From Pseudomonas sp. HAR-UPW-AIA-41 (GTDB lineage Bacteria; Pseudomonadota; Gammaproteobacteria; Pseudomonadales; Pseudomonadaceae), in contig NZ_NSLB01000002.1 of the NCBI RefSeq assembly GCF_002304225.1, positions 1 through 64,000 on the forward strand: a stretch of 64,000 nucleotides of DNA. Reading direction: 5' to 3'. Below, piece by piece: positions 5,791 through 54,402 of this stretch. Numbering within the stretch: position 1 is the stretch's first letter; each line of letters starts with the position of its first letter. The notes beneath the pieces are model-generated. The model searched no databases, was not told the DNA's origin, and saw only the letters and a program-made list of their open reading frames with translations. A program made the position numbers and the translations under genes.

Positions 5791-5874
5791 GGTGGCGGCT
5801 CCTGGCAGACCTTAGCATTGCCGCAGGCCTGAAAGGCAGCACAAGGCTGCCTCTCAGGCGACACGCCGTTGTAC

Positions 5875-41916: not shown

Positions 41917-42159
41917 AAGCCTGATCTTTCAGGCCCAAAGGAGTAGCCCTGAATATCAGTTGCCGCCGCTTCAGCACACTTCAGATACCAACCTTTCCAT
42001 GGATTGCCTGTAGCTTTGTTCACAGGCTAACCTCGGCTAAAAGCTAGCTCCGGCTGGCAAAAGGACTTGCCTGGTTGGTGTATAGCATTCTGGCGTAAAC
42101 GCCATACCCTCCCCGCAATAGAGCGGACAGCCTCCAGCAGCAAGAGAACGTTATCCACC

Positions 42160-42183
42160 AATGGTGCGTTTAAACGCACCATT
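42160..42183. repeat. 24-bp perfect palindrome at the proximal edge of the cassette array
   Basis: The sequence is its own reverse complement over 24 bases, centred on TTTAAA, and extends with one bulge to CACCA on the left and TTGGTG on the right. It lies just upstream of the first cassette boundary at 42199/42200. It could be a terminator hairpin, a decayed att site or a protein-binding site; no T run follows. Confidence 0.6.
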
Positions 42184-42198
42184 TGGTGTCTACTTATA

Positions 42199-42205
42199 GT
42201 TATAC
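42199..42205 (+). other. Proximal integron core site (GTTATAC), start of cassette 1
   Basis: GTTATAC fits the GTTRRRY core at which integron integrases cut after the G. Cassette 1 would begin at 42200. Its partner, the first seven bases of attC 1, is GCATAAC, matching the complement with one mismatch. No integrase gene lies upstream, so this is an attI-like or end core site only. Confidence 0.5.
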
Positions 42206-42216
42206 GCTGGAGCCAC

Positions 42217-42450
42217 ATGGACGAACTATTCAGCCCGATACTCCGCTTCCTAGCCTACGTAGTAAGCGAACTACTCCTAGGAACCTTCTTCTACGCGATT
42301 GGCTGGCCTTTTGTAAAAGCTGCCACGCTTGGGAAATATCCAATGCGCGAATGGCTAAGCGGATCAAAGAATGAAGCTTATGTATGCTGCGTAGGAATCC
42401 TCGTGTTCTCTATTTCATTAATGGCCGTCTTGGGCCAGTTCAGCGCATAA
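42217..42450 (+). CDS. Cassette 1: small two-helix membrane protein
   Basis: 77 residues with two hydrophobic segments (about 9-32 and 52-70) separated by a short loop containing GKYPMREWLSGSKNE. The ATG lies 17 bases after the cassette boundary, and the stop codon falls inside the first bases of attC 1, both usual for cassettes. No family recognised. As the first cassette it may be read from outside promoters. Confidence 0.65.
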   Translation: MDELFSPILRFLAYVVSELLLGTFFYAIGWPFVKAATLGKYPMREWLSGSKNEAYVCCVGILVFSISLMAVLGQFSA

Positions 42451-42533
42451 CAATGCGCTCAACTGCCGCTCACTTCGTTCGCTGGACTCGCAAAAGCTGC
42501 GCTTTTGCTCGCCCGTTAGCTTAATCGTTAGGC
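42445..42533 (+). repeat. attC 1 (class A, 89 bp)
   Basis: Opens GCATAAC, closes GTTAGGC; central hairpin arms CAAAAGC/GCTTTTG. Cut expected after 42527. Confidence 0.9.
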
Positions 42534-42538
42534 CCTAT

Positions 42539-42994
42539 ATGGCTCGCATAGCAAAGAAACCAGGCGACCTGCTGATTCTTCCCCTATCTACACAAGGGAC
42601 ACATGCGTACTGCCAATGGTTACCAGATGGTACTGCCCGCTTCTTTCTTGCCGCCTGCACTACAGAGCTGAAAGCAGACGAAATCGTTGCTCTTCCAGTT
42701 GCATTTAGGGTCCTTGTATTTAACGACACACCAAATCGCTATAACTGGGCAAAGGTAGGAAAATCAGATATCCCTGCGTCATGCATAAACCCACAGCTCT
42801 ATGCCAAAAAGGATGCTATTACTGGAAAGTTAAGCATCTACAGCGAGGGCAACGAAAAACCAGCCACCCCCGATGAGGTAAAAGGTCTAGAAAGCATGGC
42901 TGTCTGGGCCCACCCTCACATTGTCGAAAGACTGGAAGCCCAGCTTGAGGGTAAGGAATCGATGTTTCTACGCAGCATTAGTGTGTTGGCCTAA
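42539..42994 (+). CDS. Cassette 2: Imm26-like putative immunity protein
   Basis: 151 residues, soluble. The plan GDLLILPLSTQGTHAYCQWLPDGTARFF, then VVFRV-like strand AFRVLVFND, a Trp-containing NWAKVGKSDIP, and a C-terminal VKGLESMAVWAHPHIVERLEAQL is close to the Imm26 immunity family of polymorphic toxin systems. No toxin gene is adjacent. The match is by eye and moderate. Such orphan immunity proteins could protect against toxins delivered by competitors. Confidence 0.6.
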   Translation: MARIAKKPGDLLILPLSTQGTHAYCQWLPDGTARFFLAACTTELKADEIVALPVAFRVLVFNDTPNRYNWAKVGKSDIPASCINPQLYAKKDAITGKLSIYSEGNEKPATPDEVKGLESMAVWAHPHIVERLEAQLEGKESMFLRSISVLA

Positions 42995-43077
42995 CAATGC
43001 GCTCAACTGTCGCTCACTTCGTTCGCTGGACGTCCAAAAGCTGCACTTTTGGCCGCCCGTTAGCTTAATCGTTATGT
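42989..43077 (+). repeat. attC 2 (class A, 89 bp)
   Basis: Opens GCCTAAC, the exact complement of the GTTAGGC core that opens cassette 2; closes GTTATGT. Confidence 0.9.
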
Positions 43078-43092
43078 GCCAAAGGAAGGCCT

Positions 43093-43323
43093 ATGTCGTC
43101 CCCAAAAGACAGAGTTGTAGTGGCAAGCGATGTAAGCTCGCGGGATGGTATTGGTGTCGAAATTTACAGAGACAACGACTTAATCATGGAGCTATTTCGT
43201 GACGACACAGAAAGAACTCGCACAATCACTGTATTTAAAGAGTCAATCTCGCTGGAACTCATGGAAGAATCCATTCAAATTTTCAAAAAAGAAATTCCAT
43301 GGGCTTTTAGTGATCCAGTGTAA
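43093..43323 (+). CDS. Cassette 3: 76-residue conserved protein, paralogue of cassette 14
   Basis: Small acidic beta-rich protein (VVVASDVSSRDGIGVEIY, then ELFRDDTERTRTITVF) ending in a helix (SLELMEESIQIFKKEIPW). It shares nearly four fifths of its residues with cassette 14 (47836-48069), while many third codon positions differ, which shows purifying selection on a real protein. AAGGAAGG lies just upstream of the ATG. No named family recognised; size and composition would suit an immunity or antitoxin protein. Confidence 0.75.
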   Translation: MSSPKDRVVVASDVSSRDGIGVEIYRDNDLIMELFRDDTERTRTITVFKESISLELMEESIQIFKKEIPWAFSDPV

Positions 43324-43328
43324 TTGGC

Positions 43329-43405
43329 GCATAACAATGCGCTCAAATCGTTCGCTTTGCTCACTGGGACCGGCTAAAGCCGGCCCCTTAGCTTAATCGT
43401 TAGAG
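43329..43405 (+). repeat. attC 3 (class A short, 77 bp)
   Basis: Opens GCATAAC, closes GTTAGAG; central hairpin CCGGC-TAAA-GCCGG. Confidence 0.88.
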
Positions 43406-43771
43406 CACTGTTATTTCTGGGTTGGTGCAAGCAATGGAAATGCGCATGTATCCGCTATCAGTTCTGCCACTCCGTGCAGGGTTAAGCTCTGCTCCGTGCA
43501 GCTCGCACTTTCCCCCGGCCATCCGGCGCTTCATTCGTCAGCCGCAGCAGCCTTGTGCCGGCATTGCTTCTACAGTTCACCCGGCAACGCCCGGCGGGCA
43601 ATCGGCTTCAAGTTCGTTGCCAACCTGCTGCGCACGTCTCGGCTTCAATCTGAGCCGCTCAGCACCATTGCGTTCAACCTGGCCACAGCGTCTAACTATT
43701 GGTTCAAGGTCGCTCGCTTCACTCACTTGGACGTCCGTAAGCTGCGCTTACGGCCGCCCCTTAACCAAACG
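43400..43771. repeat. Cassette 4: apparently non-coding cassette, near-copy of cassette 7
   Basis: 372-bp unit almost identical to 44760-45131. Open frames exist (for example from 43422) but they run through the attC. Most differences between the two copies change the amino acid, and there is no ribosome site, so coding is unlikely. It may carry a promoter or a small RNA. It ends in a class B attC. Confidence 0.7.
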
Positions 43772-43777
43772 TTATGC
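43690..43777 (+). repeat. attC 4 (class B, 88 bp)
   Basis: Opens GTCTAAC, closes GTTATGC; hairpin arms CCGTAAGC/GCTTACGG differ from all class A sites. Confidence 0.88.
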
Positions 43778-43790
43778 ACACTAGGACGTT

Positions 43791-44216
43791 ATGATCTACG
43801 TTATCGAAAAGGACTTTGATCGCCAGTTGGAATTGCTCGTATTTCTAGCGAGCATAGGAAATTATTCGTTCTGTGGCTGGCTATATCCTGAGTCAAAAAT
43901 CTCGACCTACTCCGGACATTCCATAACATCAAATCCCAAAAGCCTAATCCCTGTTACAACCTACGGGGACGATCACAAGCCAAAATGCACAGAAACAATA
44001 TCAGCAACAAAAAACAGCATCATTGAATTCTGTGCAAGTAAAGCAGCAATTAAACAACACTTCGATTGCCTGGCAATGTATAAGCCCGGTGAAAATTCTT
44101 GGTCTGTAGCAACTATCGGCCATGAGGGTATTGGCCTAGTAAAGGATGATAATCTGCTGATTAAAATCACTGATGCCGGGTTTGTTGCTTCGTTACAGGC
44201 TCCAGAATGGTGGTAG
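43791..44216 (+). CDS. Cassette 5: hypothetical protein
   Basis: 141 residues, soluble, mixed alpha/beta (MIYVIEKDFDRQLELLVFLASIGNYSF opening; SWSVATIGHEGIGLVKDDNLL late). No signal peptide or membrane helix and no recognised family. The start is 19 bases from the cassette boundary. Codon use is AT-rich compared with the flanking chromosome. Confidence 0.65.
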   Translation: MIYVIEKDFDRQLELLVFLASIGNYSFCGWLYPESKISTYSGHSITSNPKSLIPVTTYGDDHKPKCTETISATKNSIIEFCASKAAIKQHFDCLAMYKPGENSWSVATIGHEGIGLVKDDNLLIKITDAGFVASLQAPEWW

Positions 44217-44217
44217 C

Positions 44218-44305
44218 GCATAACAACTGGTTCAAGTCGCTCGCTTCGCTCACTTCGGACGTCCAAAAGCTACGCTTTTGGCCGCCCCTTAACCAAACGT
44301 TAGAA
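44218..44305 (+). repeat. attC 5 (class B, 88 bp)
   Basis: Opens GCATAAC, exact complement of the GTTATGC opening cassette 5; closes GTTAGAA. Confidence 0.9.
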
Positions 44306-44319
44306 ACCACAAGAAATTT

Positions 44320-44682
44320 ATGCGCAGCCTTGAAGAAATACTTCGTGCAGTCGATTCGGTTCCGGACTATTACGGCCACAAGGCTACGTCTGTTAACTAC
44401 AAGAGCGGCTGGGGAGATACGCCGCTTCACATTGTCAGCTGCTGGGGTGACTGCGAAGCTATAAAAATTCTTATTGAAGCTGGCGCAGATATAAATGCAC
44501 GGGGAGAAACAGGCTTTACTCCTTTGCATTGTGCAACAGAGCAAAATCGCATTGAGGCAGTAGCGCTGCTCCTATCGCTTGGCGCGGAAATCGTGCAAGA
44601 CTCAAACGGCCACACACCCCTTGAGTTAGCCGATTTATTGGAGCGGAAAGAAATAATCAAAATCCTGAGTGGTGGTATCTAA
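44320..44682 (+). CDS. Cassette 6: ankyrin-repeat protein
   Basis: 120 residues. Two clear ankyrin repeats (GDTPLHIVSCWGDCEAIKIL, then TGFTPLHCATEQNRIEAVALL) and a third partial one (NGHTPLELADLLERKEIIKIL) follow an N-terminal helix. Ankyrin proteins act by protein binding; single-domain forms near toxin or secretion systems often serve as immunity or inhibitor proteins. The partner is unknown. Confidence 0.85.
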   Translation: MRSLEEILRAVDSVPDYYGHKATSVNYKSGWGDTPLHIVSCWGDCEAIKILIEAGADINARGETGFTPLHCATEQNRIEAVALLLSLGAEIVQDSNGHTPLELADLLERKEIIKILSGGI

Positions 44683-44765
44683 CAATGCGCTCAACTGCCG
44701 CTCACTTCGTTCGCTGGACGTCCAAAAGCTGCGCTTTTGTCCGCCCGTTAGCTTAATCGTTAGAG
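44677..44765 (+). repeat. attC 6 (class A, 89 bp)
   Basis: Opens ATCTAAC, closes GTTAGAG. The same GTTAGAG follows attC 3, so both copies of the non-coding cassette begin identically. Confidence 0.9.
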
Positions 44766-45131
44766 CACTGTTATTTCTGGGTTGGTGCAAGCAATGGAAA
44801 TGCGCATGTATCCGCTATCAGTTCAGCCACTCCGTGCTGGGGCAAGTTCTGCCCCGTGCGGCACGCACTTTCCCCCGGCCATCCGGCGTTTCATTCGTCA
44901 GCCGCAGCAGTCTTGTGCCGGCATTGCTTTTACAGTTCACCCGGCAACGCCCGACGGGCAATCGGCTTCAAGCTTGTTGCCAACCTGCTGCGCACGTCTC
45001 GGCTTCAATCCGAGCCGCTCAGTACCATTGCGTGCAACCTGGCCACAGCGTCTAACTATTGGTTCAATGTCGCTCGCTTCGCTCACTTGGACGTCCGTAA
45101 GCTGCGCTTACGGCCGCCCCTTAACCAAACG
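44760..45131. repeat. Cassette 7: second copy of the non-coding cassette
   Basis: 372 bp, differing from cassette 4 by roughly twenty scattered substitutions over the unit and no obvious indels. Two reading frames stay open in both copies but with a high share of amino-acid-changing differences. Its attC (class B) is the same type as that of cassette 4, so the whole cassette was duplicated and not merely its site. Confidence 0.7.
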
Positions 45132-45137
45132 TTGTGC
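45050..45137 (+). repeat. attC 7 (class B, 88 bp)
   Basis: Opens GTCTAAC, closes GTTGTGC. Confidence 0.88.
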
Positions 45138-45179
45138 GTCACTTTATTGAATCGTCGTATTTAGTTCTGGAAGAAAGTC

Positions 45180-45446
45180 ATGGAAGCATCTTCGGTCGCA
45201 TTCTACATAGGAGCACTGCTAGGCCTTCTATACGTCGGCATGGGCTTAGCAGCGCTTTTCAGCGTTCCTACCGACAAGAAGCATCTAATCTCATCCAGCC
45301 TTCCAACTTTCTTCTTTTGGTGGCCATTTTATAAAAGCATGTTCGACGAGAGTTCTAGTAAGCTAAGGATGCTAGGCGCTATCGCACTAGTTCTTCTAAT
45401 CTTGTCTTACGCGTCCTCTGCGGCGCTAAAATCTGTTGGGTGCTGA
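45180..45446 (+). CDS. Cassette 8: small membrane protein
   Basis: 88 residues with hydrophobic segments near 7-28, 43-50 and 64-82 and a central FFFWWPFYKS motif. Probably two or three membrane passes. No recognised family. The start lies 48 bases into the cassette with GGAAGAAAG upstream. Confidence 0.65.
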   Translation: MEASSVAFYIGALLGLLYVGMGLAALFSVPTDKKHLISSSLPTFFFWWPFYKSMFDESSSKLRMLGAIALVLLILSYASSAALKSVGC

Positions 45447-45452
45447 GTGCAC

Positions 45453-45541
45453 GCACAACAATGCGCTCAACTATCGCTCACTTCGTTCGCTGGACGTCCA
45501 AAAGCTGCGCTTTTGGCCGCCCGTTAGCTTAATCGTTAGGC
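45453..45541 (+). repeat. attC 8 (class A, 89 bp)
   Basis: Opens GCACAAC, exact complement of the unusual GTTGTGC that opens cassette 8; closes GTTAGGC. Strong evidence for a genuine cassette. Confidence 0.92.
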
Positions 45542-45548
45542 AATCAAA

Positions 45549-45890
45549 ATGAGCTTCGACATCATCGTCATCAAACCAGCGGATTCTTCAATAACTGATC
45601 TAACCGAAGTTGAAGAAACCACACCACTTGGCAGCGCTGATGCAGTTGCAGAAAAGTTCAACTCAATATTCCCAGGCTGCCTAGAAGACGGGTTCGTTTC
45701 TGGCGCTAATTACTCAGTCGAAATTTCGCTATCTGGCGGCCCTGTTGAGTCAGCACACTTAACGCTACATTTTGGTCCATCTTGGAGCAATCAAGCTGAA
45801 AATTATTTTATGCAGCAACTCACAAGCATTTGCAGTTCTACCGACTGGGTAGCATTTGCAGTTTCAGACAACGCACGCATAGCACCGTGA
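45549..45890 (+). CDS. Cassette 9: hypothetical protein
   Basis: 113 residues, acidic, soluble. MSFDIIVIKPADSS opening, a strand-rich middle (YSVEISLSGGPVESAHLTLHFG) and a C-terminal SSTDWVAFAVSDN. It has the size and composition of small immunity-type proteins but I cannot assign a family. The start is 13 bases after the cassette boundary. Confidence 0.65.
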   Translation: MSFDIIVIKPADSSITDLTEVEETTPLGSADAVAEKFNSIFPGCLEDGFVSGANYSVEISLSGGPVESAHLTLHFGPSWSNQAENYFMQQLTSICSSTDWVAFAVSDNARIAP

Positions 45891-45894
45891 GGCT

Positions 45895-45983
45895 GCCTAA
45901 CAATGCGCTCAACTGCCGCTCACTTCGTTCGCTGGACGTCCAAAAGCTGCGCTTTTGGCCGCCCGTTAGCTTAATCGTTAGAA
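45895..45983 (+). repeat. attC 9 (class A, 89 bp)
   Basis: Opens GCCTAAC, exact complement of the opening core of cassette 9; closes GTTAGAA. Confidence 0.9.
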
Positions 45984-45989
45984 GGCACC

Positions 45990-46202
45990 ATGGCTGCGTA
46001 CTACACGCCAGAAATCGAGCACAAAACTACCGCGCTAATTCAGCGACACTTTCATGTGCCCGAAGAACGTGCTCAGCGCTTAGCAGTCGCCGCACTTAAC
46101 GGTATTGAATCACACGGCCTCAATCCAAATAACTGGGACACAGTTGTTGACACGGTCAAGGTCGTGGTTGCTTCATGGATAAAGAGCGGTTATCTACTGT
46201 GA
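45990..46202 (+). CDS. Cassette 10: 70-residue hypothetical protein
   Basis: Small soluble helical protein (YYTPEIEHKTTALIQRHFHVPEERAQRL, then NWDTVVDTVKVVVASW). No signal peptide and no family recognised. It occupies one of the shortest cassettes (about 300 bp in all), with the start 12 bases after the boundary. Confidence 0.6.
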   Translation: MAAYYTPEIEHKTTALIQRHFHVPEERAQRLAVAALNGIESHGLNPNNWDTVVDTVKVVVASWIKSGYLL

Positions 46203-46209
46203 AGCTGCC

Positions 46210-46286
46210 TTCTAACAATGCGCTCAAAGCGCTCACTCCGTTCGCTGGGACCGGCTAAAGCCGGCCCCTTAGCTTAATCGTTAGGG
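46210..46286 (+). repeat. attC 10 (class A short, 77 bp)
   Basis: Opens TTCTAAC, exact complement of GTTAGAA opening cassette 10; closes GTTAGGG. Confidence 0.9.
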
Positions 46287-46293
46287 GTTGCAT

Positions 46294-46770
46294 ATGAGAA
46301 TCACAACAATAGCACCCGGATTTATATTTTTATTTGCCTGCACCACATCTTATGCAGCGCCCAGCAAGTGCTACACCATAACAGATAGACTGCAAGACTT
46401 CAGCGCGACTGAAGAGACGTGGGGCGAGGCAACATCTTTCTTAAAAATTATAAATATCGAAAAAGAAAAAATTGAATTTGAGCTTAAGCAATACGGTGCA
46501 AATTTCCATACTTGCGGATTACCAGGTTTTGCCTTCAAACAAGCTGACGGAACCTTTGTATTCAAAGACGAAAAGGAATATTGGCCTAGGGCGTGGGAGC
46601 TGCATGGAATTTCCCAGAGCAATAAAATCTGCGAGATCCATTTTGGCTTTACTGAAAACAGAGTTTCGATAACCACTGTAAATTCATGCCATAGCTTTTG
46701 CGGCGCAAGAGCCTCCATAGGAGGCTCGCTAAATAAATCTGAAAACTGCGACCAGTACAGCCTCCCCTAA
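46294..46770 (+). CDS. Cassette 11: secreted Cys-rich hypothetical protein
   Basis: 158 residues from the ATG at 46294; the cassette core itself (GTTAGGGG) supplies the ribosome site. The signal peptide is cleaved near Ser-Tyr-Ala-Ala (residue 21). The mature protein has several cysteines (CYT, HTC, KICE, NSCHSFCGA, NCDQ) that could pair in the periplasm. The C-terminal NRVSITTVNSCHSFCGARASIGG is distinctive. Family not recognised; periplasmic immunity or inhibitor function is possible. Confidence 0.7.
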   Translation: MRITTIAPGFIFLFACTTSYAAPSKCYTITDRLQDFSATEETWGEATSFLKIINIEKEKIEFELKQYGANFHTCGLPGFAFKQADGTFVFKDEKEYWPRAWELHGISQSNKICEIHFGFTENRVSITTVNSCHSFCGARASIGGSLNKSENCDQYSLP

Positions 46771-46853
46771 CAATGCGCTCAACTGTCGCTCACTCCGTTC
46801 GCTGGACAGCCAAAAGCTTCGCTTTTGTCTGCCCGTTAGCTTAATCGTTAGAG
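46765..46853 (+). repeat. attC 11 (class A, 89 bp)
   Basis: Opens CCCTAAC, exact complement of GTTAGGG opening cassette 11; closes GTTAGAG. It overlaps the stop codon of the gene. Confidence 0.92.
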
Positions 46854-46860
46854 GCAAAGC

Positions 46861-47325
46861 GTGAAAATTAAGTGGCTGGCCTTACCGCTAATCGCGGTCA
46901 TAGTAGCTGTAGCAAGTCTATACGCCTTTGCTCACACTCTGCCTAACCTTGTTCTTCCTCTGAGGTCAGTTAATGCATTTGCCTCTTCTGATGGTGGCTC
47001 AGTCACAATTGAGATTGAAGATGCCGCTGGTAATCAATTTTACTTCGGAATTGAAGGCAGCCTAGACACACCGCGCGAAGTGTTCCCGTCCTTTTACGCA
47101 CGCCCAATCTTCGGAATACCTCTAATCATCAAGCCCAAAGTTGGCAGCCTTGAAGAACGCGAGCTTGCAGATTTCGCAAAAAATCTAGCAACGTCCAACC
47201 TCACCACAAAAGCATTGAGCAAGGTTACGGCTAACGAGCTAGGCGGGCTTTCAAAAGAAGAATTCAAATACGCCGTCATCTATTCCATATACACCACTCT
47301 CAGTGAGCGCCATGCCTCTAACTAG
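46861..47325 (+). CDS. Cassette 12: membrane-anchored hypothetical protein
   Basis: 154 residues from a GTG start. One N-terminal hydrophobic segment (about 5-25) anchors a soluble domain with SVTIEIEDAAGNQFYFGIEGSLD and a helical C-terminus. The GAGG of the cassette core and the following bases form the ribosome site. Its last codons lie inside the attC. No family recognised. Confidence 0.65.
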   Translation: MKIKWLALPLIAVIVAVASLYAFAHTLPNLVLPLRSVNAFASSDGGSVTIEIEDAAGNQFYFGIEGSLDTPREVFPSFYARPIFGIPLIIKPKVGSLEERELADFAKNLATSNLTTKALSKVTANELGGLSKEEFKYAVIYSIYTTLSERHASN

Positions 47326-47402
47326 TGGTTCAAGCCGCTCGCTTCGCTCACTCGGGACGTTCAAAAGCTACGCTTTTGCCGCCCCTTAACCAAACGTTAG
47401 GC
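47316..47402 (+). repeat. attC 12 (class B, 87 bp)
   Basis: Opens CTCTAAC, exact complement of GTTAGAG opening cassette 12; closes GTTAGGC. Confidence 0.9.
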
Positions 47403-47409
47403 CTCACAC

Positions 47410-47739
47410 ATGTCGAACCCCATTGATGTCCAGACTGATATTCTTTCTAAAATTTCAGAGTATCTCTATGACAGCGCCCCCTCAGAGTTTGAAGAGGCAA
47501 CCTGCACTTTTGAATACGATTGTGAAGATGATGGCAGCTGGTCAGTTGGATCTAAATTTTCATATACAGACAACGGAATAATTTTCAGTGATTACCTCAA
47601 TGACGAAGGTGGCAAGCTTACAGATCTCGTCGCCAAACTTCATGAAGTAATGCATTCACACACAGGTGGCAAGTGGAGCGCGTTTACTATTTCCGTTAAG
47701 AACGGCGGCCCCGCAAACGTTAAATTCAAGTATGAATGA
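47410..47739 (+). CDS. Cassette 13: YezG/DUF600-like putative immunity protein
   Basis: 109 residues, strongly acidic. The order helix (ILSKISEYLYDSAP), strand (CTFEYDCEDDGSWSVGSKFSY), helix (LTDLVAKLHEVM) and strand (KWSAFTISVKNGGPANVKFKYE) matches the YezG-type immunity family that neutralises YeeF-like nuclease toxins. No toxin is adjacent. Assignment is by eye and moderate. Confidence 0.65.
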   Translation: MSNPIDVQTDILSKISEYLYDSAPSEFEEATCTFEYDCEDDGSWSVGSKFSYTDNGIIFSDYLNDEGGKLTDLVAKLHEVMHSHTGGKWSAFTISVKNGGPANVKFKYE

Positions 47740-47744
47740 ATACG

Positions 47745-47820
47745 GCCTAACAACTGGTTCAAATCGCTCGCTCCGCTCGCTGGGACGGGCTAAAGCCCGC
47801 CCCTTAACCAAACGTTATGT
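47745..47820 (+). repeat. attC 13 (class B short, 76 bp)
   Basis: Opens GCCTAAC, exact complement of the core of cassette 13; closes GTTATGT; hairpin GGGC-TAAA-GCCC. Confidence 0.9.
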
Positions 47821-47835
47821 GCCAAAGGAAGGTCT

Positions 47836-48069
47836 ATGTCGCTCCCCAAAGACAGAGTTGTAGTCGCAAGCGATGTAAATCCTCGAGATGGGATCGGTGT
47901 TGAAATCTACAGAAACGACGAACTGGTCGTTGAAATTTTTAGGGACGATACGGACAGAACTCGGACAGTAACAGTATTCAAAGAATCAATTTCACTTGAG
48001 CTAATGGAGGAATCCATTCAGATATTCAAGAAAGAGATTCCTTGGGACTTCATTGAATACGAGGAATAG
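47836..48069 (+). CDS. Cassette 14: 77-residue conserved protein, paralogue of cassette 3
   Basis: Same fold and almost the same C-terminal helix as cassette 3 (TVFKESISLELMEESIQIF shared exactly). The N-terminal strand differs (NPRDGIGVEIYRNDELVVEIF). Nucleotide differences are concentrated at silent positions. Both paralogues are preceded by the same GTTATGTGCCAAAGGAAGG leader but end in different residues. Function unknown. Confidence 0.75.
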   Translation: MSLPKDRVVVASDVNPRDGIGVEIYRNDELVVEIFRDDTDRTRTVTVFKESISLELMEESIQIFKKEIPWDFIEYEE

Positions 48070-48071
48070 GC

Positions 48072-48160
48072 ACATAACAATGCGCTCAACTACCGCTCAC
48101 TTCGTTCGCGGGACGTCCAAAAGCTACGCTTTTGGCCGCCCGTTAGCTTAATCGTTATGT
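48072..48160 (+). repeat. attC 14 (class A, 89 bp)
   Basis: Opens ACATAAC, exact complement of GTTATGT opening cassette 14; closes GTTATGT. Confidence 0.9.
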
Positions 48161-48170
48161 GCAAACACAC

Positions 48171-48497
48171 ATGAAAGAGCTCATTGCAAGCCTGAAGGTT
48201 ATTGGAATAACTCCTGATGGAGAGCGGATCGATATCATTGCCGAAATCGGCAAGCCGTTCCCAGTTGAAGGCCAAGAAGACATTGATGAGTGGGCATGCC
48301 CAGTGTCACTTAAGCCGCTATACAAACGGCTGCATAACGCTCACGGAAGTGGCTCATTGCAAGCACTCTGCCTAGCGACAAGCCTTGCTTTGAATTTACT
48401 GCAAGGCTTTATCGAAAAAGGCGGAAGGCTAGTTCATGAGGACGGAACCGATTTTCCTCTTGAAGCTTATTCCTTTGGCCTCGCAAAAGGCACATAA
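48171..48497 (+). CDS. Cassette 15: hypothetical protein
   Basis: 108 residues from the ATG at 48171. A strand-rich N-terminus (GITPDGERIDIIAEIGKPF) leads to ACPVSLKPLYKRLHNAHGSGSLQALCLATSLALNLLQGFI, a layout reminiscent of small DUF6968-like proteins in which the central domain carries CPV and LQAL motifs. The assignment is tentative. Soluble, no signal peptide. Confidence 0.6.
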   Translation: MKELIASLKVIGITPDGERIDIIAEIGKPFPVEGQEDIDEWACPVSLKPLYKRLHNAHGSGSLQALCLATSLALNLLQGFIEKGGRLVHEDGTDFPLEAYSFGLAKGT

Positions 48498-48580
48498 CAA
48501 TGTGCTCAACTATCGCTCACTTCGTTCGCTGGACAGCCAAAAGCTGCGCTTTTGTCTGCCCGTTAGCTTAATCGTTAGAT
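48492..48580 (+). repeat. attC 15 (class A, 89 bp)
   Basis: Opens ACATAAC, exact complement of the core of cassette 15; closes GTTAGAT. Confidence 0.9.
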
Positions 48581-48606
48581 GCAGTTTCAAAAATCACGGA
48601 ACCATC

Positions 48607-48909
48607 ATGGCATTCGACATGTATCACGGTAGCGAGAAAGCATGCATAGAAACGCATGAAGAGTCGCTATTCGTTCCTGTTAACGAAAATCCGAAATACC
48701 TATGCCTAGGCTGGCTTTTGGCAGAACTCTATAACTCCCCCAGGATTCCACCAGAAAAATCGAATATTATTGTTCATGAGCTTATTGCGTTGCGAGAGGA
48801 GCTTCTTGGCACAGAGCTAAGCTATGTAACAAGAACCATTGACAGAATCATGCCTTTCTTCAGCAAAGCATACATACTCAAAGCTGAGATAAAGTGCGTA
48901 AGCGATTGA
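48607..48909 (+). CDS. Cassette 16: hypothetical protein
   Basis: 100 residues, helical and soluble, with a GWLLAELYNSPRIPPEKSNIIVHELIALREELL core. A longer in-frame reading from 48436 only translates the preceding attC and is rejected. The ATG at 48607 lies 32 bases into the cassette. Small helical proteins of this style are common in cassettes; no family assigned. Confidence 0.62.
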   Translation: MAFDMYHGSEKACIETHEESLFVPVNENPKYLCLGWLLAELYNSPRIPPEKSNIIVHELIALREELLGTELSYVTRTIDRIMPFFSKAYILKAEIKCVSD

Positions 48910-48923
48910 GGCTCGTGCCATGC

Positions 48924-48999
48924 ATCTAACAAGTGGTTCAAATCGCTCGCTTCGCTCACTGGGACGGGCTAAAGCCCGCCCCTTAACCAAACGTTAAAC
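48924..48999 (+). repeat. attC 16 (class B short, 76 bp)
   Basis: Opens ATCTAAC, exact complement of GTTAGAT opening cassette 16; closes GTTAAAC. Confidence 0.9.
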
Positions 49000-49015
49000 A
49001 TTAGAGGAAAACTCC

Positions 49016-49345
49016 ATGCGGCTTGTCTTAACTTTGATTCTAATAACACTTTCGCTCATATCAAATGCTGCTCCAATTAAAGGGGCAGGAGCCGGAAGCT
49101 GTGGTGAGTGGGTAGAAGAGCGGCGAGAAAATACATATCACGCCACACTGCATTGGATCCAAGGCTTCTTGAGCGCTTACAACGCGTATGTTTATTCTGG
49201 AACAAATCCTGACGGTGTATTTGGTGGCGCAGACTATAAGGCAATTGCCGTCTGGATGGATAACTATTGTCAGAAAAACCCTTTAAGCACCCCATATACA
49301 GGTGCCGAACTTCTTATCAAAGAGCTGGAAGCCCAGTACAACTAA
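49016..49345 (+). CDS. Cassette 17: secreted small protein
   Basis: 109 residues with a signal peptide cleaved near Ser-Asn-Ala-Ala (residue 18). The mature part holds GSCGEWVEERRENTYHATLHWIQGFLSAYNAYV and a second Cys in MDNYCQKNP, giving a likely disulfide. The pattern of Cys, WIQGFLSAYN and late Cys is seen in small periplasmic HdeA- or Rap1a-like proteins, but I cannot assign it firmly. GAGGAAA is the ribosome site. Confidence 0.7.
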   Translation: MRLVLTLILITLSLISNAAPIKGAGAGSCGEWVEERRENTYHATLHWIQGFLSAYNAYVYSGTNPDGVFGGADYKAIAVWMDNYCQKNPLSTPYTGAELLIKELEAQYN

Positions 49346-49346
49346 C

Positions 49347-49435
49347 GTCTAACAATGCGCTCAATTATCGCTCACTCCGTTCGCTGGACAGCCAAAAGCT
49401 GCGCTTTTGGCCGCCCGTTAGCTTAATCGTTAGGC
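49347..49435 (+). repeat. attC 17 (class A, 89 bp)
   Basis: Opens GTCTAAC (one mismatch from the complement of GTTAAAC), closes GTTAGGC. Confidence 0.88.
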
Positions 49436-49444
49436 GTTACCAAA

Positions 49445-49774
49445 ATTAAAAATTTATTCTGCTCTATTTTTATAATCATCCTAATGGGTTGCGCGCCATC
49501 TCACGGTGTATGGAGTCGTGGCCTTGACGCTATGGTCGGTACAAAATTCAACGGTCACATATATCAAGATTGCCACAGTGGTTGTGGTGACTCTTACTGG
49601 TCACCATCAAATAAAAATGAAGAATTTGACAAAGTTATTCCTCAGGGAAACGACAAGCGCTACTACATTACATGGGAGAGAGCATGTAAGTACTCCGTTT
49701 TAGTTTCCGAACCCGGCATAATTAAGTCTTGGCGATACGAAACGAATGAAGTTAATAGCTGCTATGTTTATTAA
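49445..49774 (+). CDS. Cassette 18: small lipoprotein with non-standard start
   Basis: Frame open from the cassette boundary. Read from the ATT at 49445 it gives a lipoprotein signal peptide (KNLFCSIFIIILMGC, lipobox LMGC), then a mature region of about 94 residues with HSGCGDSYWSPS and ACKYSVLV. The only ATG in frame (49484) sits at the lipobox Met, right before the Cys, and would delete the export signal. Either ATT is used as a rare start, or the start codon has been lost and the gene is silent. Family not recognised. Confidence 0.55.
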   Translation: MKNLFCSIFIIILMGCAPSHGVWSRGLDAMVGTKFNGHIYQDCHSGCGDSYWSPSNKNEEFDKVIPQGNDKRYYITWERACKYSVLVSEPGIIKSWRYETNEVNSCYVY

Positions 49775-49822
49775 TTTGCGATCAACAAGCAGCTATAAAA
49801 ATTTATCACTAATGGTGCCGTC

Positions 49823-49898
49823 GCCTAACAAGCGGTTCAAATCGTTCGCCGCGCTCTCTGGGACGGACAGAGCCCGCCCCTTAACCTAAACGTTAGGC
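49823..49898 (+). repeat. attC 18 (class B short, 76 bp)
   Basis: Opens GCCTAAC, exact complement of the core of cassette 18; closes GTTAGGC. Contains small differences (CCTAAACGTTAGG) from other class B sites. Confidence 0.85.
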
Positions 49899-49908
49899 AG
49901 AAACAGTT

Positions 49909-50676
49909 ATGAAGAACCTACAAACCCTGAAATTACTTGCGGGCATTGGAGTCCTACTTACCTTTCTGTCTTGGCTCTTTGATAAGTCAGCATGGTTTTC
50001 TTCCGTCCTTCTAAATATCGGCTCCGGTATCGTGACGTCAGTTGTGCTCATATATGCATATGATCTATTAATTGAAAGGCAGCAAGAAAAGCTTCGAAAA
50101 GACAAACAGCGTCGAGCAATTTCAAATCAAAAAATCACACTACGACAACATTACAGGGTTTTGCTTGACTGCTACAGAAGCGCTTACGCTGGCGCAGAAC
50201 CAGCAGAGTTCAAAGATATAAATTCATTTCTCGGCGCTCGCTACGAAGAAACATTTGCCGCACTAAATATTTATGCACCCTCACCAGCAAACTCAATGGG
50301 CACCACTCCATACTATAAATATATAGAAGACTCGTTTATACAGCTATCCAGCTCTCTCCACTTAATGCTGGCCGCATCTGGAGACAATCTAGATCAAGAG
50401 TTGTTCGCTGCAGTGGATAACCTACTAAACTCCGAGTTCATGAGGGTTTGCCAATCCCTCAGCGCAATATGCACCTTCACAATCCCCGGCTTCGGCAACG
50501 TACCCAGCCAGCTCATCACGGGAATGGGAGATCAAGTAAGAGACTACTGTATAAAATTCTGTCAGTTAATAAACGCCTTCGAGAAGGTTGAGCCCCAAGG
50601 CCTGAGAGAGTACAGAAAAGAAGATTGGCAGAATTTAATTTTACCTATTGGGCACGCTCGCGTAGCAAGCGCCTAA
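49909..50676 (+). CDS. Cassette 19: two-helix membrane protein with large cytosolic domain
   Basis: 255 residues. Two membrane helices at about 8-25 and 31-51 are followed by a basic helix (ERQQEKLRKDKQRR) and a mostly helical cytosolic domain of about 185 residues with no recognised motif. Two N-terminal helices plus a cytosolic helical domain is an architecture used by several membrane effectors of phage-defence systems, but also by many unrelated proteins. It precedes the nuclease-like cassettes. Confidence 0.7.
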   Translation: MKNLQTLKLLAGIGVLLTFLSWLFDKSAWFSSVLLNIGSGIVTSVVLIYAYDLLIERQQEKLRKDKQRRAISNQKITLRQHYRVLLDCYRSAYAGAEPAEFKDINSFLGARYEETFAALNIYAPSPANSMGTTPYYKYIEDSFIQLSSSLHLMLAASGDNLDQELFAAVDNLLNSEFMRVCQSLSAICTFTIPGFGNVPSQLITGMGDQVRDYCIKFCQLINAFEKVEPQGLREYRKEDWQNLILPIGHARVASA

Positions 50677-50746
50677 CAAGTGGTTCAAATCGCTCGCTCC
50701 GCTCGCTGGGACGGGCTAAAGCCCGCCCCTTAACCAAACGTTATGT
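50671..50746 (+). repeat. attC 19 (class B short, 76 bp)
   Basis: Opens GCCTAAC, exact complement of the core of cassette 19 and providing its TAA stop; closes GTTATGT. Confidence 0.9.
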
Positions 50747-50765
50747 GCCAAAAGGGAAAATCACG

Positions 50766-51314
50766 ATGCCTATTGATCCTGGCAAAGTAGAGCAATTGTT
50801 AGATAAAGCTCTCGAAGTATTCTTCCGTGCGGAGTCAGATAATATTGCCCTGGGCACTAACGAGAGAAATCTCTGCGGGCGCTTAGCTATCCATCTCAAT
50901 AATTTGCTTCCGGAGTTTGCTCTAGAAAGATATTACGCAGACACCGAGTACAACAGAAAACAAGATGGTCGCGTTAAAACAATTCTTGACCATCAGCACG
51001 TTATAGTAACCATCAACTGCGACCTCATACTTCACTCAAGAGGTGAGCTTGTGGCAGAGGATAATCTCATTGCCTTTGAGGTTAAGAAATCCACACGACC
51101 GAATCACGAAAAAGAGGACGATAGGAACAGACTTCGGGCGATGACTAAGGCCAGCTACGACGATGTTTGGTCAGCAGATGGTATCGCTCACCCAGAGCAT
51201 GTTTGCGGGTATCTCATTGGCGCATTCGTTGAGTTAGATGTAAGGTCACGCACATATCTCGTAGAGAAGTACGCTCACGGAAATATTGCTAGCTCTACCA
51301 ATGGCCATTTTTAA
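50766..51314 (+). CDS. Cassette 20: PD-(D/E)XK nuclease-like protein
   Basis: 182 residues from the ATG at 50766. An N-terminal helix with ERNLCGRLAIHLNNLLP contains an early Glu. CDLILHSRG near residue 90 supplies the Asp, and NLIAFEVKKSTRP near 104 supplies the E-x-K motif, the order expected for the PD-(D/E)XK nuclease core. A C-terminal tail (DVRSRTYLVEKYAHG) follows. It could be a small restriction-like or repair nuclease. The attC after it has a mutated cut site, so it is probably fused for mobility to cassette 21. Confidence 0.65.
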   Translation: MPIDPGKVEQLLDKALEVFFRAESDNIALGTNERNLCGRLAIHLNNLLPEFALERYYADTEYNRKQDGRVKTILDHQHVIVTINCDLILHSRGELVAEDNLIAFEVKKSTRPNHEKEDDRNRLRAMTKASYDDVWSADGIAHPEHVCGYLIGAFVELDVRSRTYLVEKYAHGNIASSTNGHF

Positions 51315-51330
51315 GCTACCAAGTAATGGC

Positions 51331-51419
51331 ACATAACAATGCGCTCAACTATCGCTCACTTCGTTCGCTGGACAGCCAAAAGCTACGCTTTTGTCTGCCC
51401 GTTAGCTTAATCTTTATAT
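51331..51419 (+). repeat. attC 20 (class A, 89 bp) with mutated cut site
   Basis: Opens ACATAAC, exact complement of the core of cassette 20. It closes TTTATAT instead of GTTATAT: the G before the cut is T. The next attC opens ATATAAC, which shows that the ancestral core was GTTATAT. Confidence 0.9.
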
Positions 51420-51437
51420 TCGCAGAGATATCATGCA

Positions 51438-52298
51438 ATGTCTGATGGAAAAGATTACGAAAAATTCGTAAAAGACCTCCAGCAAGCACTTTTGGATTCA
51501 GAGAAATTCTCCGAGCAAAAGAACATTGAAATCGAGGCAAATAAGAAAATAATTGATAATTTCGGAATTGAGCGCGAATTCGACCTGTACTGGGAGTACG
51601 AGCTGGCTGGCGTCACGTACAAAACAGTAATTGAATGCAAAGATTACGCCTCGCGCGTCTCAATTGAAAAAATTGATGCCCTTATTGGAAAAACACGCGA
51701 CATACCAGACTTAAAGCCAGTATTTGCCACCAAAACCGGCTACCAAAGTGGCGCAGAGGCAAAGGCAAAAGCTAACCGCATAGACCTTCTAATTGTTCGC
51801 AAGCAACGCGACGACGACTGGGAAGACAAGGACGGAAATCCATTAGTTAGAGAAATTAACATTGAAATGCAGATTCTGCCCTGCCCAAGAATAACAAACT
51901 TTCGACCTCGCATAGACGGAAATTGGGCAAAAGAAAATACAAATCTAGACCCAAGCACTAAATTAATTTCGTCCGGCATGAATAATGAAATATTCATTGA
52001 AGACGTTGCAAATAATGACACTTATTCACTATATGACTTGGCATATAGACTAGATTCAAAAGCCAATGGAGAATACGGCGATTTAAGCCACACAGAGACC
52101 TTTCAAGAAGCGTACTTCCTCAACAATGGGCTAAGACTAAAAATGCTTTCATATGAGGTTGATTTTTTCCGGCAAAAACCAATCATCAACCCCATCAATA
52201 TTGACTTCTCAAAAGAGTTGGTCGGCGTAATTGAGTATCTTCATAAGGGTTCCTCAACGGCAATCTTTAAGGACAGAATCATTAAAGATTGGAAGTAA
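51438..52298 (+). CDS. Cassette 21: Mrr-like restriction endonuclease-fold protein
   Basis: 286 residues. The first 120 residues form a restriction-endonuclease fold: helix DYEKFVKDLQQALL, then REFDLYWEYEL (Asp), KTVIECKDYASRVS (E-x-K, about 71-84) and KPVFATKTGYQSGAEAKAKA, as in Mrr/type IV enzymes. The C-terminal half is of unknown fold and may recognise modified or foreign DNA. No methylase is encoded nearby, which fits a modification-dependent or abortive enzyme. Confidence 0.75.
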   Translation: MSDGKDYEKFVKDLQQALLDSEKFSEQKNIEIEANKKIIDNFGIEREFDLYWEYELAGVTYKTVIECKDYASRVSIEKIDALIGKTRDIPDLKPVFATKTGYQSGAEAKAKANRIDLLIVRKQRDDDWEDKDGNPLVREINIEMQILPCPRITNFRPRIDGNWAKENTNLDPSTKLISSGMNNEIFIEDVANNDTYSLYDLAYRLDSKANGEYGDLSHTETFQEAYFLNNGLRLKMLSYEVDFFRQKPIINPINIDFSKELVGVIEYLHKGSSTAIFKDRIIKDWK

Positions 52299-52299
52299 A

Positions 52300-52387
52300 A
52301 TATAACAATGCGCTCAACACCGTTCGCTTCGCTCACTGGACTCGCAAAAGCTGCGCCTTTGCTCGCCTGTTAGCTTAATCGTTAGAA
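52300..52387 (+). repeat. attC 21 (class A, 88 bp)
   Basis: Opens ATATAAC, closes GTTAGAA. The central hairpin has a mismatch (CGCCTTTGC in place of CGCTTTTGC). Confidence 0.87.
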
Positions 52388-52402
52388 ACCAAAGATGGAC
52401 AG

Positions 52403-52681
52403 GTGTCAGTCCCTAAAACGCAAGCAATGACAGTGACAGTCAACGTAGAAGCTGGAGAGCCAATTGAGGTTGCGCTGCGCAAGCTCAATAAAAAGGTAAA
52501 GCATGAAACGGATCGCCGCTGGCACAAGCGAAGATTCGGTTATTACGAGAAGCCATCAGCATTGAAGCGCAAGGCAAAGAAGATGAAAGAGCTTTCAATA
52601 CAGTCAGGTGGTAGGTTGTGGTTGAAAATTGGACTTAAAGAGCAATTCTCTAAAAATGGCAGCTCAGCCGCAGGGCGCTAG
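52403..52681 (+). CDS. Cassette 22: ribosomal protein bS21-like protein
   Basis: 92 residues from GTG 52403 (ATG 52427 is an alternative). Residues about 11-66 follow the bS21 pattern: a short strand (VNVEAGEPIEVALRKLNKKV), then a basic helix with RRFGYYEKPSALKRKAKKMKEL, matching the bS21 consensus of EPFDVALRRFKR, RREFYEKPT and RKRAK. A C-terminal extension of about 25 residues (SGGRLWLKIGLKEQF) is not normal for bS21. bS21 helps mRNA binding on the 30S subunit. A mobile cassette copy could change translation initiation in its host. Confidence 0.75.
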   Translation: MSVPKTQAMTVTVNVEAGEPIEVALRKLNKKVKHETDRRWHKRRFGYYEKPSALKRKAKKMKELSIQSGGRLWLKIGLKEQFSKNGSSAAGR

Positions 52682-52694
52682 TCGTGCAATTGTT

Positions 52695-52783
52695 TCCTAA
52701 CAATGCGCTCAACTATCGCTCACTTCGTTCGCTGGACGTCCAAAAGCTGCGCTTTTGGCCGCCCGTTAGCTTAATCGTTATGC
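52695..52783 (+). repeat. attC 22 (class A, 89 bp)
   Basis: Opens TCCTAAC, one base from the expected TTCTAAC; closes GTTATGC. Confidence 0.88.
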
Positions 52784-52822
52784 ACCAAACACACAGCCCT
52801 TCACGACAAAAAGATAAATTTG

Positions 52823-53683
52823 ATGAGTGCGACTAAAATAGACAGCCTCTCTTCTCTGCTAGACCTGATATCTGCAACAAAGAAATCAGGCCATAGCTTG
52901 TATTTTAGAGGACAAAAGAAAAGGTACGATACCGTTAAGCCATCAATTGATAGAAATGGCTACTTAAAAAACGAAGATGTACTTTTTAAAGAATTCATAA
53001 TAAGAAACCCCGATGAGTTCAAAGGACAGAGGTCGACCTTTGAAATACTCACAAAAATGCAACACTATGGATTGCCAACTCGCCTTCTGGATATAACAAC
53101 AAATCCATTGGTCGCATTGTTTTTTGCAGTCGAGTCTGACAAAGAAACTGATGCAGAGGCTGGTGATTTTATAGTTTTTTCAATACCAGACAAATTCGTT
53201 AAGTATTACGACTCAGATACGGTGAGCGTAGTTGCAAATGTTGCAAGAAGGCCTTATGGCGAACTGGATGTCAGCAAAATATCTAGAAAAATATCCGAGG
53301 GCGAAGAAAAGAAGAAATGGATAAAAAGATTTAACGACCACGCTCACATCCAATATTTATTGCACGAAATAAAAGACGAAAAACCGTATTTTTCTCACGC
53401 CATAGAGAAAGATCACCTTCAGTCAATATGGTGTGTAAAGCCACTTCTTAACAACAGAAGAATAATAAAACAAGACGGCGCTTTCCTTTTATTTGGAATC
53501 GACGAAACAAAGAAGAAGCTTGCCAATTACAAGAAAGAGGAGTTTGAGCCAATCAGATTCGCGGTCGAAAACAAACAAAAACTCAGGGAGCAACTTGAGT
53601 TACTGGGGTTTTCAAGGGATAAGATTTATCCGGAAATGGATACGACTGCAGACTACCTCAAAGAAAGATACAAAAACGCATAA
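52823..53683 (+). CDS. Cassette 23: FRG domain protein
   Basis: 286 residues. The N-terminal FRG domain (about 8-115) shows the signature: SLYFRGQKKRYDTVKPSI with the Phe-Arg-Gly triplet, then EILTKMQHYGLPTRLLDITTNPLVALFFAVE. The C-terminal half is charged and AT-rich. FRG proteins occur in phage-defence and toxin contexts, where the domain is often predicted to modify nucleotides or RNA; its activity here is unproven. A start at 52820 (TTG) is also possible. Confidence 0.85.
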   Translation: MSATKIDSLSSLLDLISATKKSGHSLYFRGQKKRYDTVKPSIDRNGYLKNEDVLFKEFIIRNPDEFKGQRSTFEILTKMQHYGLPTRLLDITTNPLVALFFAVESDKETDAEAGDFIVFSIPDKFVKYYDSDTVSVVANVARRPYGELDVSKISRKISEGEEKKKWIKRFNDHAHIQYLLHEIKDEKPYFSHAIEKDHLQSIWCVKPLLNNRRIIKQDGAFLLFGIDETKKKLANYKKEEFEPIRFAVENKQKLREQLELLGFSRDKIYPEMDTTADYLKERYKNA

Positions 53684-53776
53684 CCATTCCGTCGAGAGGG
53701 ACCGCCCACAAGCTGCGCTTGTGGGTTCCCTTCGCGGCTTCGCCGCTACGGCGGCTCCTCACGTCAAACATTAGGC
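53678..53776 (+). repeat. attC 23 (class C, 99 bp) with mutated cut site
   Basis: Opens GCATAAC, exact complement of GTTATGC opening cassette 23. It closes ATTAGGC, with A in place of the invariant G. The middle is a different, longer hairpin region (CCCACAAGC/GCTTGTGGG, then GGCGGCTCCTCACGTC). Confidence 0.78.
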
Positions 53777-53789
53777 GCTTAGGAGACAT

Positions 53790-54323
53790 ATGCGCGGAAT
53801 TCTTCTGTTCATTTCAATGCTGATAATGGGATCTGGATCGATGGCCAAGGAAGTCGAGAAATCTGAAGCAGAAATGGTTGCCAGCCTTCGACAGATGGCC
53901 CTTTCGCTGAAGCCAAGCGACATTGGTATTTCCGCAGCAACGTTCCCGCATGAGGTGTGGGGCGTCCTAATGGAAACGGGCTATGACAGCGGAGCATTCA
54001 CTTTGGTGGTTCTGGCCGACGGAACCGTCAGTATCTACTTCAGTACAGGCGGCGGAATTATCGGTGCTGGTGAGCATGAAAGCGTCAGGCAGCCAGCAGG
54101 CTCCTTCATTGGCCTGGCTAACCGCTATGTGTATGTGGCTAAGCCTTCAACAGCACAGCCGCTACCACCAGACGGTCTGACTACCTTCTACTTTCTAACC
54201 AATAGCGGCATTCGCTCATACTCAGCAAAAGAAGTTGACCTCGGCGAAGGGCGCGAAAAGCTCTCAGAGCTTTTTCATGCAGGCCATGCCGTAATTGCTG
54301 AGGTTCGTAAAAACCAGCAATAA
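53790..54323 (+). CDS. Cassette 24: exported hypothetical protein
   Basis: 177 residues. A hydrophobic N-terminus (MRGILLFISMLIMGSGSMA, possible signal peptide) precedes a domain with KPSDIGISAATFPHEVWGVLMETGYDSGAFTLVVLADGTVSIYFSTGGGIIGAGEHESVR. Its last part, RYVYVAKPSTAQPLPPDGLTTFYFLTNSG, looks like a repeated beta structure. It resembles small DUF families with immunity-like size, but I cannot name one. GC content is higher than in most cassettes. Confidence 0.65.
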   Translation: MRGILLFISMLIMGSGSMAKEVEKSEAEMVASLRQMALSLKPSDIGISAATFPHEVWGVLMETGYDSGAFTLVVLADGTVSIYFSTGGGIIGAGEHESVRQPAGSFIGLANRYVYVAKPSTAQPLPPDGLTTFYFLTNSGIRSYSAKEVDLGEGREKLSELFHAGHAVIAEVRKNQQ

Positions 54324-54325
54324 GC

Positions 54326-54402
54326 GCATAACAATTGGTTCAAGCCGTTCGCTTCGCTCACTCGGGACCGGCTAAAGCCCGCCCCTTAACCAAACGGTAG
54401 CC
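54326..54402 (+). repeat. attC 24 (class B short, 77 bp) with altered core
   Basis: Opens GCATAAC; closes GGTAGCC where GTTAGCC is expected (second base changed). Confidence 0.82.

Follow-up and report, generated by a model that had tools for sequence, protein, structure and literature searches.

Can the change of one base in a recombination site tie two gene cassettes together, and does such a tie mean that the two genes have become a functional unit? The question is raised by an array of gene cassettes in the stretch of DNA analysed here (the window), which covers the initial 64 kb of a contig of 614 kb in a draft genome of 3.72 Mb and 58 contigs. The array counts 24 attC sites, which run in one direction from 42445 to 54402 with small genes in between. 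The sequence-only reading of the window had proposed that a changed base at the end of attC20, the 20th of these sites counted from the left, locked two nuclease cassettes together, a possible step from an array to a fixed defence operon.

The cassette array and its changed junction

No tyrosine-recombinase gene was matched in the 64-kb window. An integron integrase is present on contig C11 of the same genome (full-length, 334 aa; TIGR02249, 479 bits), where 11 like attCs adjoin it. A 62-bp stretch of the window (42141-42202) is 95% identical to the C11 stretch between intI and the first cassette and, since this copy precedes cassette 1, the window array seems to own an attI-like start; one integrase may serve two attI sites. 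A cluster of attCs with neither an integrase gene nor an attI of its own is known as a CALIN. The window has no tyrosine-recombinase match, but its array would differ from a CALIN if the stretch before cassette 1 works as an attI.

Between cassette 10 (window 45970-46283) and the first C11 cassette next to intI (8139-7827 of the C11 stretch L026), 314 nt align at 98.7% identity, which suggests recent cassette movement between the two arrays. Two 300-nt stretches (43383-43682 and 44743-45042), which share 94% identity and span the greater part of cassettes 4 and 7, represent a duplicated cassette. The protein of cassette 22 (52403-52681) matches ribosomal protein bS21 (NCBIfam S21p, 40.7 bits), and a close relative of this cassette was seen by eye in the array of another genome (locus L086, genome G133); a gene cassette that carries a copy of a ribosomal protein seems out of the ordinary. 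The product of cassette 23 (52820-53683) has an FRG domain and gave a match to PDC-S15, a candidate defence family (E 4.4e-99). The final attC of the C11 array (L026 2549-2627) has the core TTCAGAA and a changed inverse core, and is the only other T-first site found in the genome. The Rfam family Pseudomonas sRNA P11 was also matched within the window.

The features of the locus, in window coordinates, are the following.

42141..42202, + strand: attI-like stretch before cassette 1, with no adjoining intI; called attI-like by position only
50671..50746, + strand: attC19, with intact core GTTATGT at 50740; left edge of the block formed by cassettes 20 and 21
50741..51413, + strand: cassette 20 including attC20, with its limits set according to the G|TT rule for gene cassettes; last base changed
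50766..51314, + strand: cassette 20 gene, 182 aa, PD-(D/E)XK-like, weak PADLOC match to PD-Lambda-3_A
51331..51419, + strand: attC20, 89 nt, with inverse core ACATAAC (51331-51337) and core TTTATAT (51413-51419)
51413..51413, + strand: T replacing the conserved G at the recombination point; the first core base is G in 22 of the 24 attCs of the array
51414..52381, + strand: cassette 21 including attC21; the match in the same-genus genome G060 starts at exactly base 51414
51438..52298, + strand: cassette 21 gene, 286 aa, Mrr-like restriction endonuclease domain
52300..52387, + strand: attC21, with intact core GTTAGAA at 52381; right edge of the block formed by cassettes 20 and 21
53678..53776, + strand: attC23, which lacks the G; core ATTAGGC at 53770
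54326..54402, + strand: attC24, final site of the array; core GGTAGCC at 54396

The reported end of attC20 was borne out: TTTATAT closes the site at 51413-51419, immediately preceded by AGCTTAATC, and this assembly does have a T at 51413. GTT is kept in 21 of the 24 attCs, with attC20 (TTT), attC23 (ATTAGGC) and attC24 (GGTAGCC) as the exceptions. Apart from the T, attC20 is complete, and it is 85% identical over 94 nt to the reference attC copy at 42990. Against the consensus RYYYAAC...GTTRRRY, its inverse core ACATAAC fits and TTTATAT fails, which places the site outside the formal definition; judged from its sequence, attC20 is an attC by descent that has lost one defining base. The two outer sites had been taken as usable boundaries, and the cores of attC19 (GTTATGT, 50740) and attC21 (GTTAGAA, 52381) are indeed intact.

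In an integrated array, the upstream cassette includes the base that precedes TT. Base 51413 is therefore assigned to cassette 20, which it closes, and in the hairpin it pairs with C51337, within the ACATAAC of attC20 itself. The sequence-only reading had taken the ATATAAC of attC21 as proof that the ancestral base was G. The ancestral G stands, because it follows from attC20's own AAC together with the family consensus, but the proof was rejected, since it paired the wrong base: the C of attC21's ATATAAC would pair with G52381 in the cassette-21 circle. The G is present in G060 at the junction before the cassette-21 homologue (ACCAAACGTTATATTCGCA). In both cassettes, the start is complementary to the inverse core of the cassette's own attC (GTTATGT/ACATAAC in cassette 20, TTATAT/ATATAAC in cassette 21). 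Minimum-free-energy folds of the attC bottom strands gave mixed structures and were uninformative on the effect of the base.

The T might also be a sequencing or assembly error, given a draft genome of 58 contigs and repeated attCs of about 89 bp that are hard to assemble, but we regard this as highly improbable. The 35 attCs found in the genome (24 in the window, 11 on C11) comprise 31 with GTT and one each with TTC, TTT, ATT and GGT; none of the others begins with TTTA, so a mix-up of attC copies during assembly does not readily account for the T. A second changed core in the array (53770) and like changes in other genomes likewise argue against an error.

The expected effect of the lost G

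The G had been called required for recombination. This wording was too strong in view of the title of Frumerie 2010, which speaks of relaxed requirements; the study reportedly found that two partner sites need to agree in their first base, whether or not it is G. Under this rule, attC20 would not be dead but mismatched with G-type sites, to which 32 of the genome's 35 detected attCs belong, and the lock would be plausible and perhaps a relative one. The relaxed requirements of that title would also suit the view that there is no lock, and that attC20 recombines well enough because integrases tolerate triplet changes. We consider this view rather unlikely, the matching rule asking for equal first bases where nearly all sites found in the genome begin with G.

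A paper that cites Frumerie words the matter differently and describes the GTT triplet as absolutely conserved (PMC10609294). When AAC was changed to AAA on the bottom strand of one attI1, the bottom strand became unreactive, and the overall rate of attI1-AAA in direct orientation was unchanged (PMC4792948). The constant rates would favour a tolerant integrase, but the authors credit them to the top strand of the double-stranded attI, whereas for attC sites they report recombination in the structured form only; the same source, with reference to Frumerie 2010, states that the cleavage triplet gives the microhomology needed in strand transfer (PMC4792948). The attI1-AAA variant carries the same base change at the same position as attC20, but it is an engineered, double-stranded attI1 studied with IntI1 and not a natural folded attC. 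IntI1 is further described as needing little sequence identity and as acting on secondary sites, which again speaks for tolerance, but against it the same source names 5'-GNT-3' as the motif that IntI1 targets conserve, with only the second base lax (PMC10127599). According to a passage of PMC2727003, G/C never occurs in the L box of attI sites, which prevents exchange there. No report of a lock by a point mutation in the core appeared among the papers listed by the literature searches, a negative that carries little weight.

In the course of events that we propose, the last base of attC20 changed from G to T after cassettes 20 and 21 were already adjacent. The folded bottom-strand triplet would then be AAA instead of AAC, and exchange with the G-type sites of both arrays would be much rarer because the AAA triplet has no matching base. 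Recombination between attC19 and attC21 would be unaffected and would release a two-gene circle. An arrival of the T together with the cassette was rejected by inference: the matching rule would bar a T-type circle from a G-type site, and a change in place is therefore simpler.

Fused cassettes are already known, and they are the closest known kind. In fused cassettes of class 1 integrons (blaGES-1/aacA4), the middle site is out of use and the pair moves by its outer sites (PMC4670013; PMC8876359). Fused cassettes with a truncated middle attC are described as being excised as one (PMC4670013), and both papers liken fused pairs to operons. In those cases some or all of the middle attC is gone and circle PCR supports movement of the block, whereas attC20 is complete except for the change of its last base, and movement of its block would be a prediction. 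The block of cassettes 20 and 21 has two complete ORFs and intact outer cores, with a middle site that is presumably out of use. With the hairpin kept and one base changed, the result could be a composite cassette with a PD-lambda-3A-like and an Mrr-like nuclease, still mobile by way of attC19 and attC21, or, more boldly and provided that partners have to agree in their first base, T- and A-type attCs could form private compatibility classes that split an array into blocks; we think this unlikely.

The two genes and their relatives elsewhere

The window had been read as carrying two nuclease genes here, and both proteins are nuclease-like, that of gene 20 by its PADLOC match and structural model and that of gene 21 by its Mrr_cat match, which makes "two nucleases" a fair reading of what is predicted. 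The gene 20 protein matches PADLOC PD-Lambda-3_A (PDLC03986) weakly (E 2.1e-7, 29 bits, residues 12-126), and the same family is matched by 8 of the 9 aligned members of the cassette-20 family, gene 20 included. It had no match in Pfam, and PADLOC found no other part of PD-Lambda-3 in cassettes 19, 21, 23 and 24 and the frame after attC24. The top VIA-align rows for its AlphaFold model (pLDDT 84.3, pTM 0.82) were 3ijm, 1wdj, 3ot2, 6okh and DrdV (Z 8.1-9.4), several of them titled restriction-endonuclease-like or nuclease, with the unrelated Rep15 close below (Z 7.6). Foldseek gave no match for the model at E up to 0.001 (best E 3e-3), and a search of solved structures with the gene 20 sequence returned nothing credible. 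In the D..ExK motif of the family, D86 and E105 are invariant (9/9), and K107 is kept in 7 of 9 members and replaced by A in the same-genus genomes G135 and G183. PD-lambda-3 is listed among the systems with a PD-(D/E)XK nuclease (PMC10952713) and has been described as an abortive infection system (PMC13190303).

The gene 21 protein matches Pfam Mrr_cat with 22.5 bits against a cut-off of 21, as do all nine aligned members of its family, itself included. The residues D49, E66, C67 and K68 of the D..ECK motif are invariant in 9/9. Solved structures searched with its sequence gave one weak match, which lies outside the Mrr part, and PADLOC gave no match at E 0.01.

The expectation that both genes might be found as a unit elsewhere was disappointed among the loci compared: outside the window, none of the 9 loci with a cassette-20 relative and the 21 places with a cassette-21 relative holds both, in a comparison in which many loci had about 1.5 kb of flank and some lay at contig ends, which left aside four genomes and 9 of 11 plasmid records, and for which the genome collections held one genome per species. 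Within these limits, the pair was not seen outside the window in plasmids, viral contigs, genus genomes, genome contigs or the loci compared. Among 398 same-genus genomes, this one included, cassette 20 was matched in 4 and cassette 21 in 24, and one scan of genome contigs with cassette 20 gave 6 relatives. A search of plasmids with the cassette-20 protein gave no match, that with the cassette-21 protein gave 11 records, all below 60% identity (two were examined as loci), and that by DNA gave 19 records, none of which covers 80% of the query. In viral contigs, peptide patterns of cassette 20 were not found, and the 21 exact matches to the 16-base changed junction showed no attC context by eye. 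The changed junction was seen only in this array.

Both families are also found as cassettes in their own right, in different company. The gene-21 homologue of G060 (94% aa identity; dN/dS 0.06 by a simple count) is a cassette of its own behind a different cassette, with GTTATATTC intact. A 55% relative of gene 21 in Salinivibrio lies between attC-like sites with GTTATATTTT in front, and a 58% relative of cassette 20 in Pelomonas lies between two attC-like sites with the G intact and other neighbours; no attC was seen by eye beside the remaining cassette-20 relatives. When the G060 locus (L025, about 4860-5815) is compared with 51414-52381, the gene has about 90% DNA identity and the attC bodies behind it are by eye of different types, which suggests an exchange of attC bodies behind gene 21.

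It might nevertheless be supposed that the mutation fixed two nucleases in one composite cassette for defence, on which selection now acts as a whole, an array-to-operon step. Both proteins are nuclease-like, the cassette-20 family resembles PD-Lambda-3_A, a component of a defence system, the nearby cassette 23 strongly matches the candidate defence family PDC-S15, and attC19 and attC21 are both intact. We judge this quite improbable: the comparison above yielded no locus with both relatives, each family is found separately with other neighbours, the Mrr-like protein is without a PADLOC match at E 0.01, and the frequency of lost-G junctions in the window (see below) does not significantly exceed that outside. 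The step from array to fixed defence operon that had been proposed is without comparative support, because no locus compared holds both genes and each family is separate elsewhere. In the material examined, genes 20 and 21 show no shared history, and nothing found supports selection for a two-nuclease operon.

Lost-G junctions as probable wear in cassette arrays

The frequency of lost-G junctions was determined with a blastn census, for which the window's 24 attCs served as queries; these were cut just before the core, so the first base was unable to bias the census, which recovers sites with a recognisable body and misses those with a strongly changed one. The 44 sources consisted of the window and 43 further stretches, which were drawn from 22 of the 31 genomes with a DNA match (the other 9 were left out), and 38 sources, from 22 genomes, had sites. 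GTT is present in 235 of the 254 sites that the census yielded; in 10 the G is gone and TT remains (8 ATT, 2 TTT), 6 have the G without TT, and 3 are more worn. A junction was counted as internal if a further detected attC followed within 3.5 kb downstream on the same strand, which placed the three most worn sites outside the count. The G was missing at 8 of 216 internal junctions, with 2/23 in the window and 6/193 outside, where the 193 include the 11-site array of C11 but not its last site (TTC), which is not internal; the fraction in the window is nominally above that outside, although not significantly (Fisher p=0.20).

These frequencies do not bear out the view of the attC20 change as a special event; to judge by the cores counted, loss of the G is a recurring kind of wear in cassette arrays. 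Worn attCs in other arrays of the genus have also lost the G with TT kept, but five of the six outside junctions changed from G to A, unlike attC20, and one (L087, TTTATAA) from G to T like attC20. Four of the six are followed within 3.5 kb by an inverse core that matches over 7 bases, in three cases that of the next detected attC. Other locked pairs of this sort therefore seem to exist, although a 7-base match within this distance could arise by chance. The eight proteins of these four pairs outside the window gave no nuclease match in Pfam; one matched DUF2513, and one was YezG-like below the cut-off. By the same reasoning cassettes 23 and 24 would also be locked, because attC23 lacks its G as well, and two further worn cores (53770 and 54396) lie downstream of attC20 in the same array.

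We consider it probable that the change in attC20 is a point mutation acquired in place, which probably makes recombination with G-type partners less frequent and so couples two otherwise separate cassettes by ordinary wear and not as a functional pair. The present coupling of genes 20 and 21 is probably temporary and due to chance and to wear in the distal array; we infer such chance decay from the frequency of the lost-G junctions.

The coupling of genes 20 and 21 bears no sign of function. If the lock holds, the change at attC20 would be the smallest step towards a partly fixed array, a single base with the hairpin left intact. Outside the window, the G is missing at about 3% (6/193) of the internal junctions found, and comparisons of cassette arrays could therefore show whether pairs persist longer across a lost G than other pairs do.
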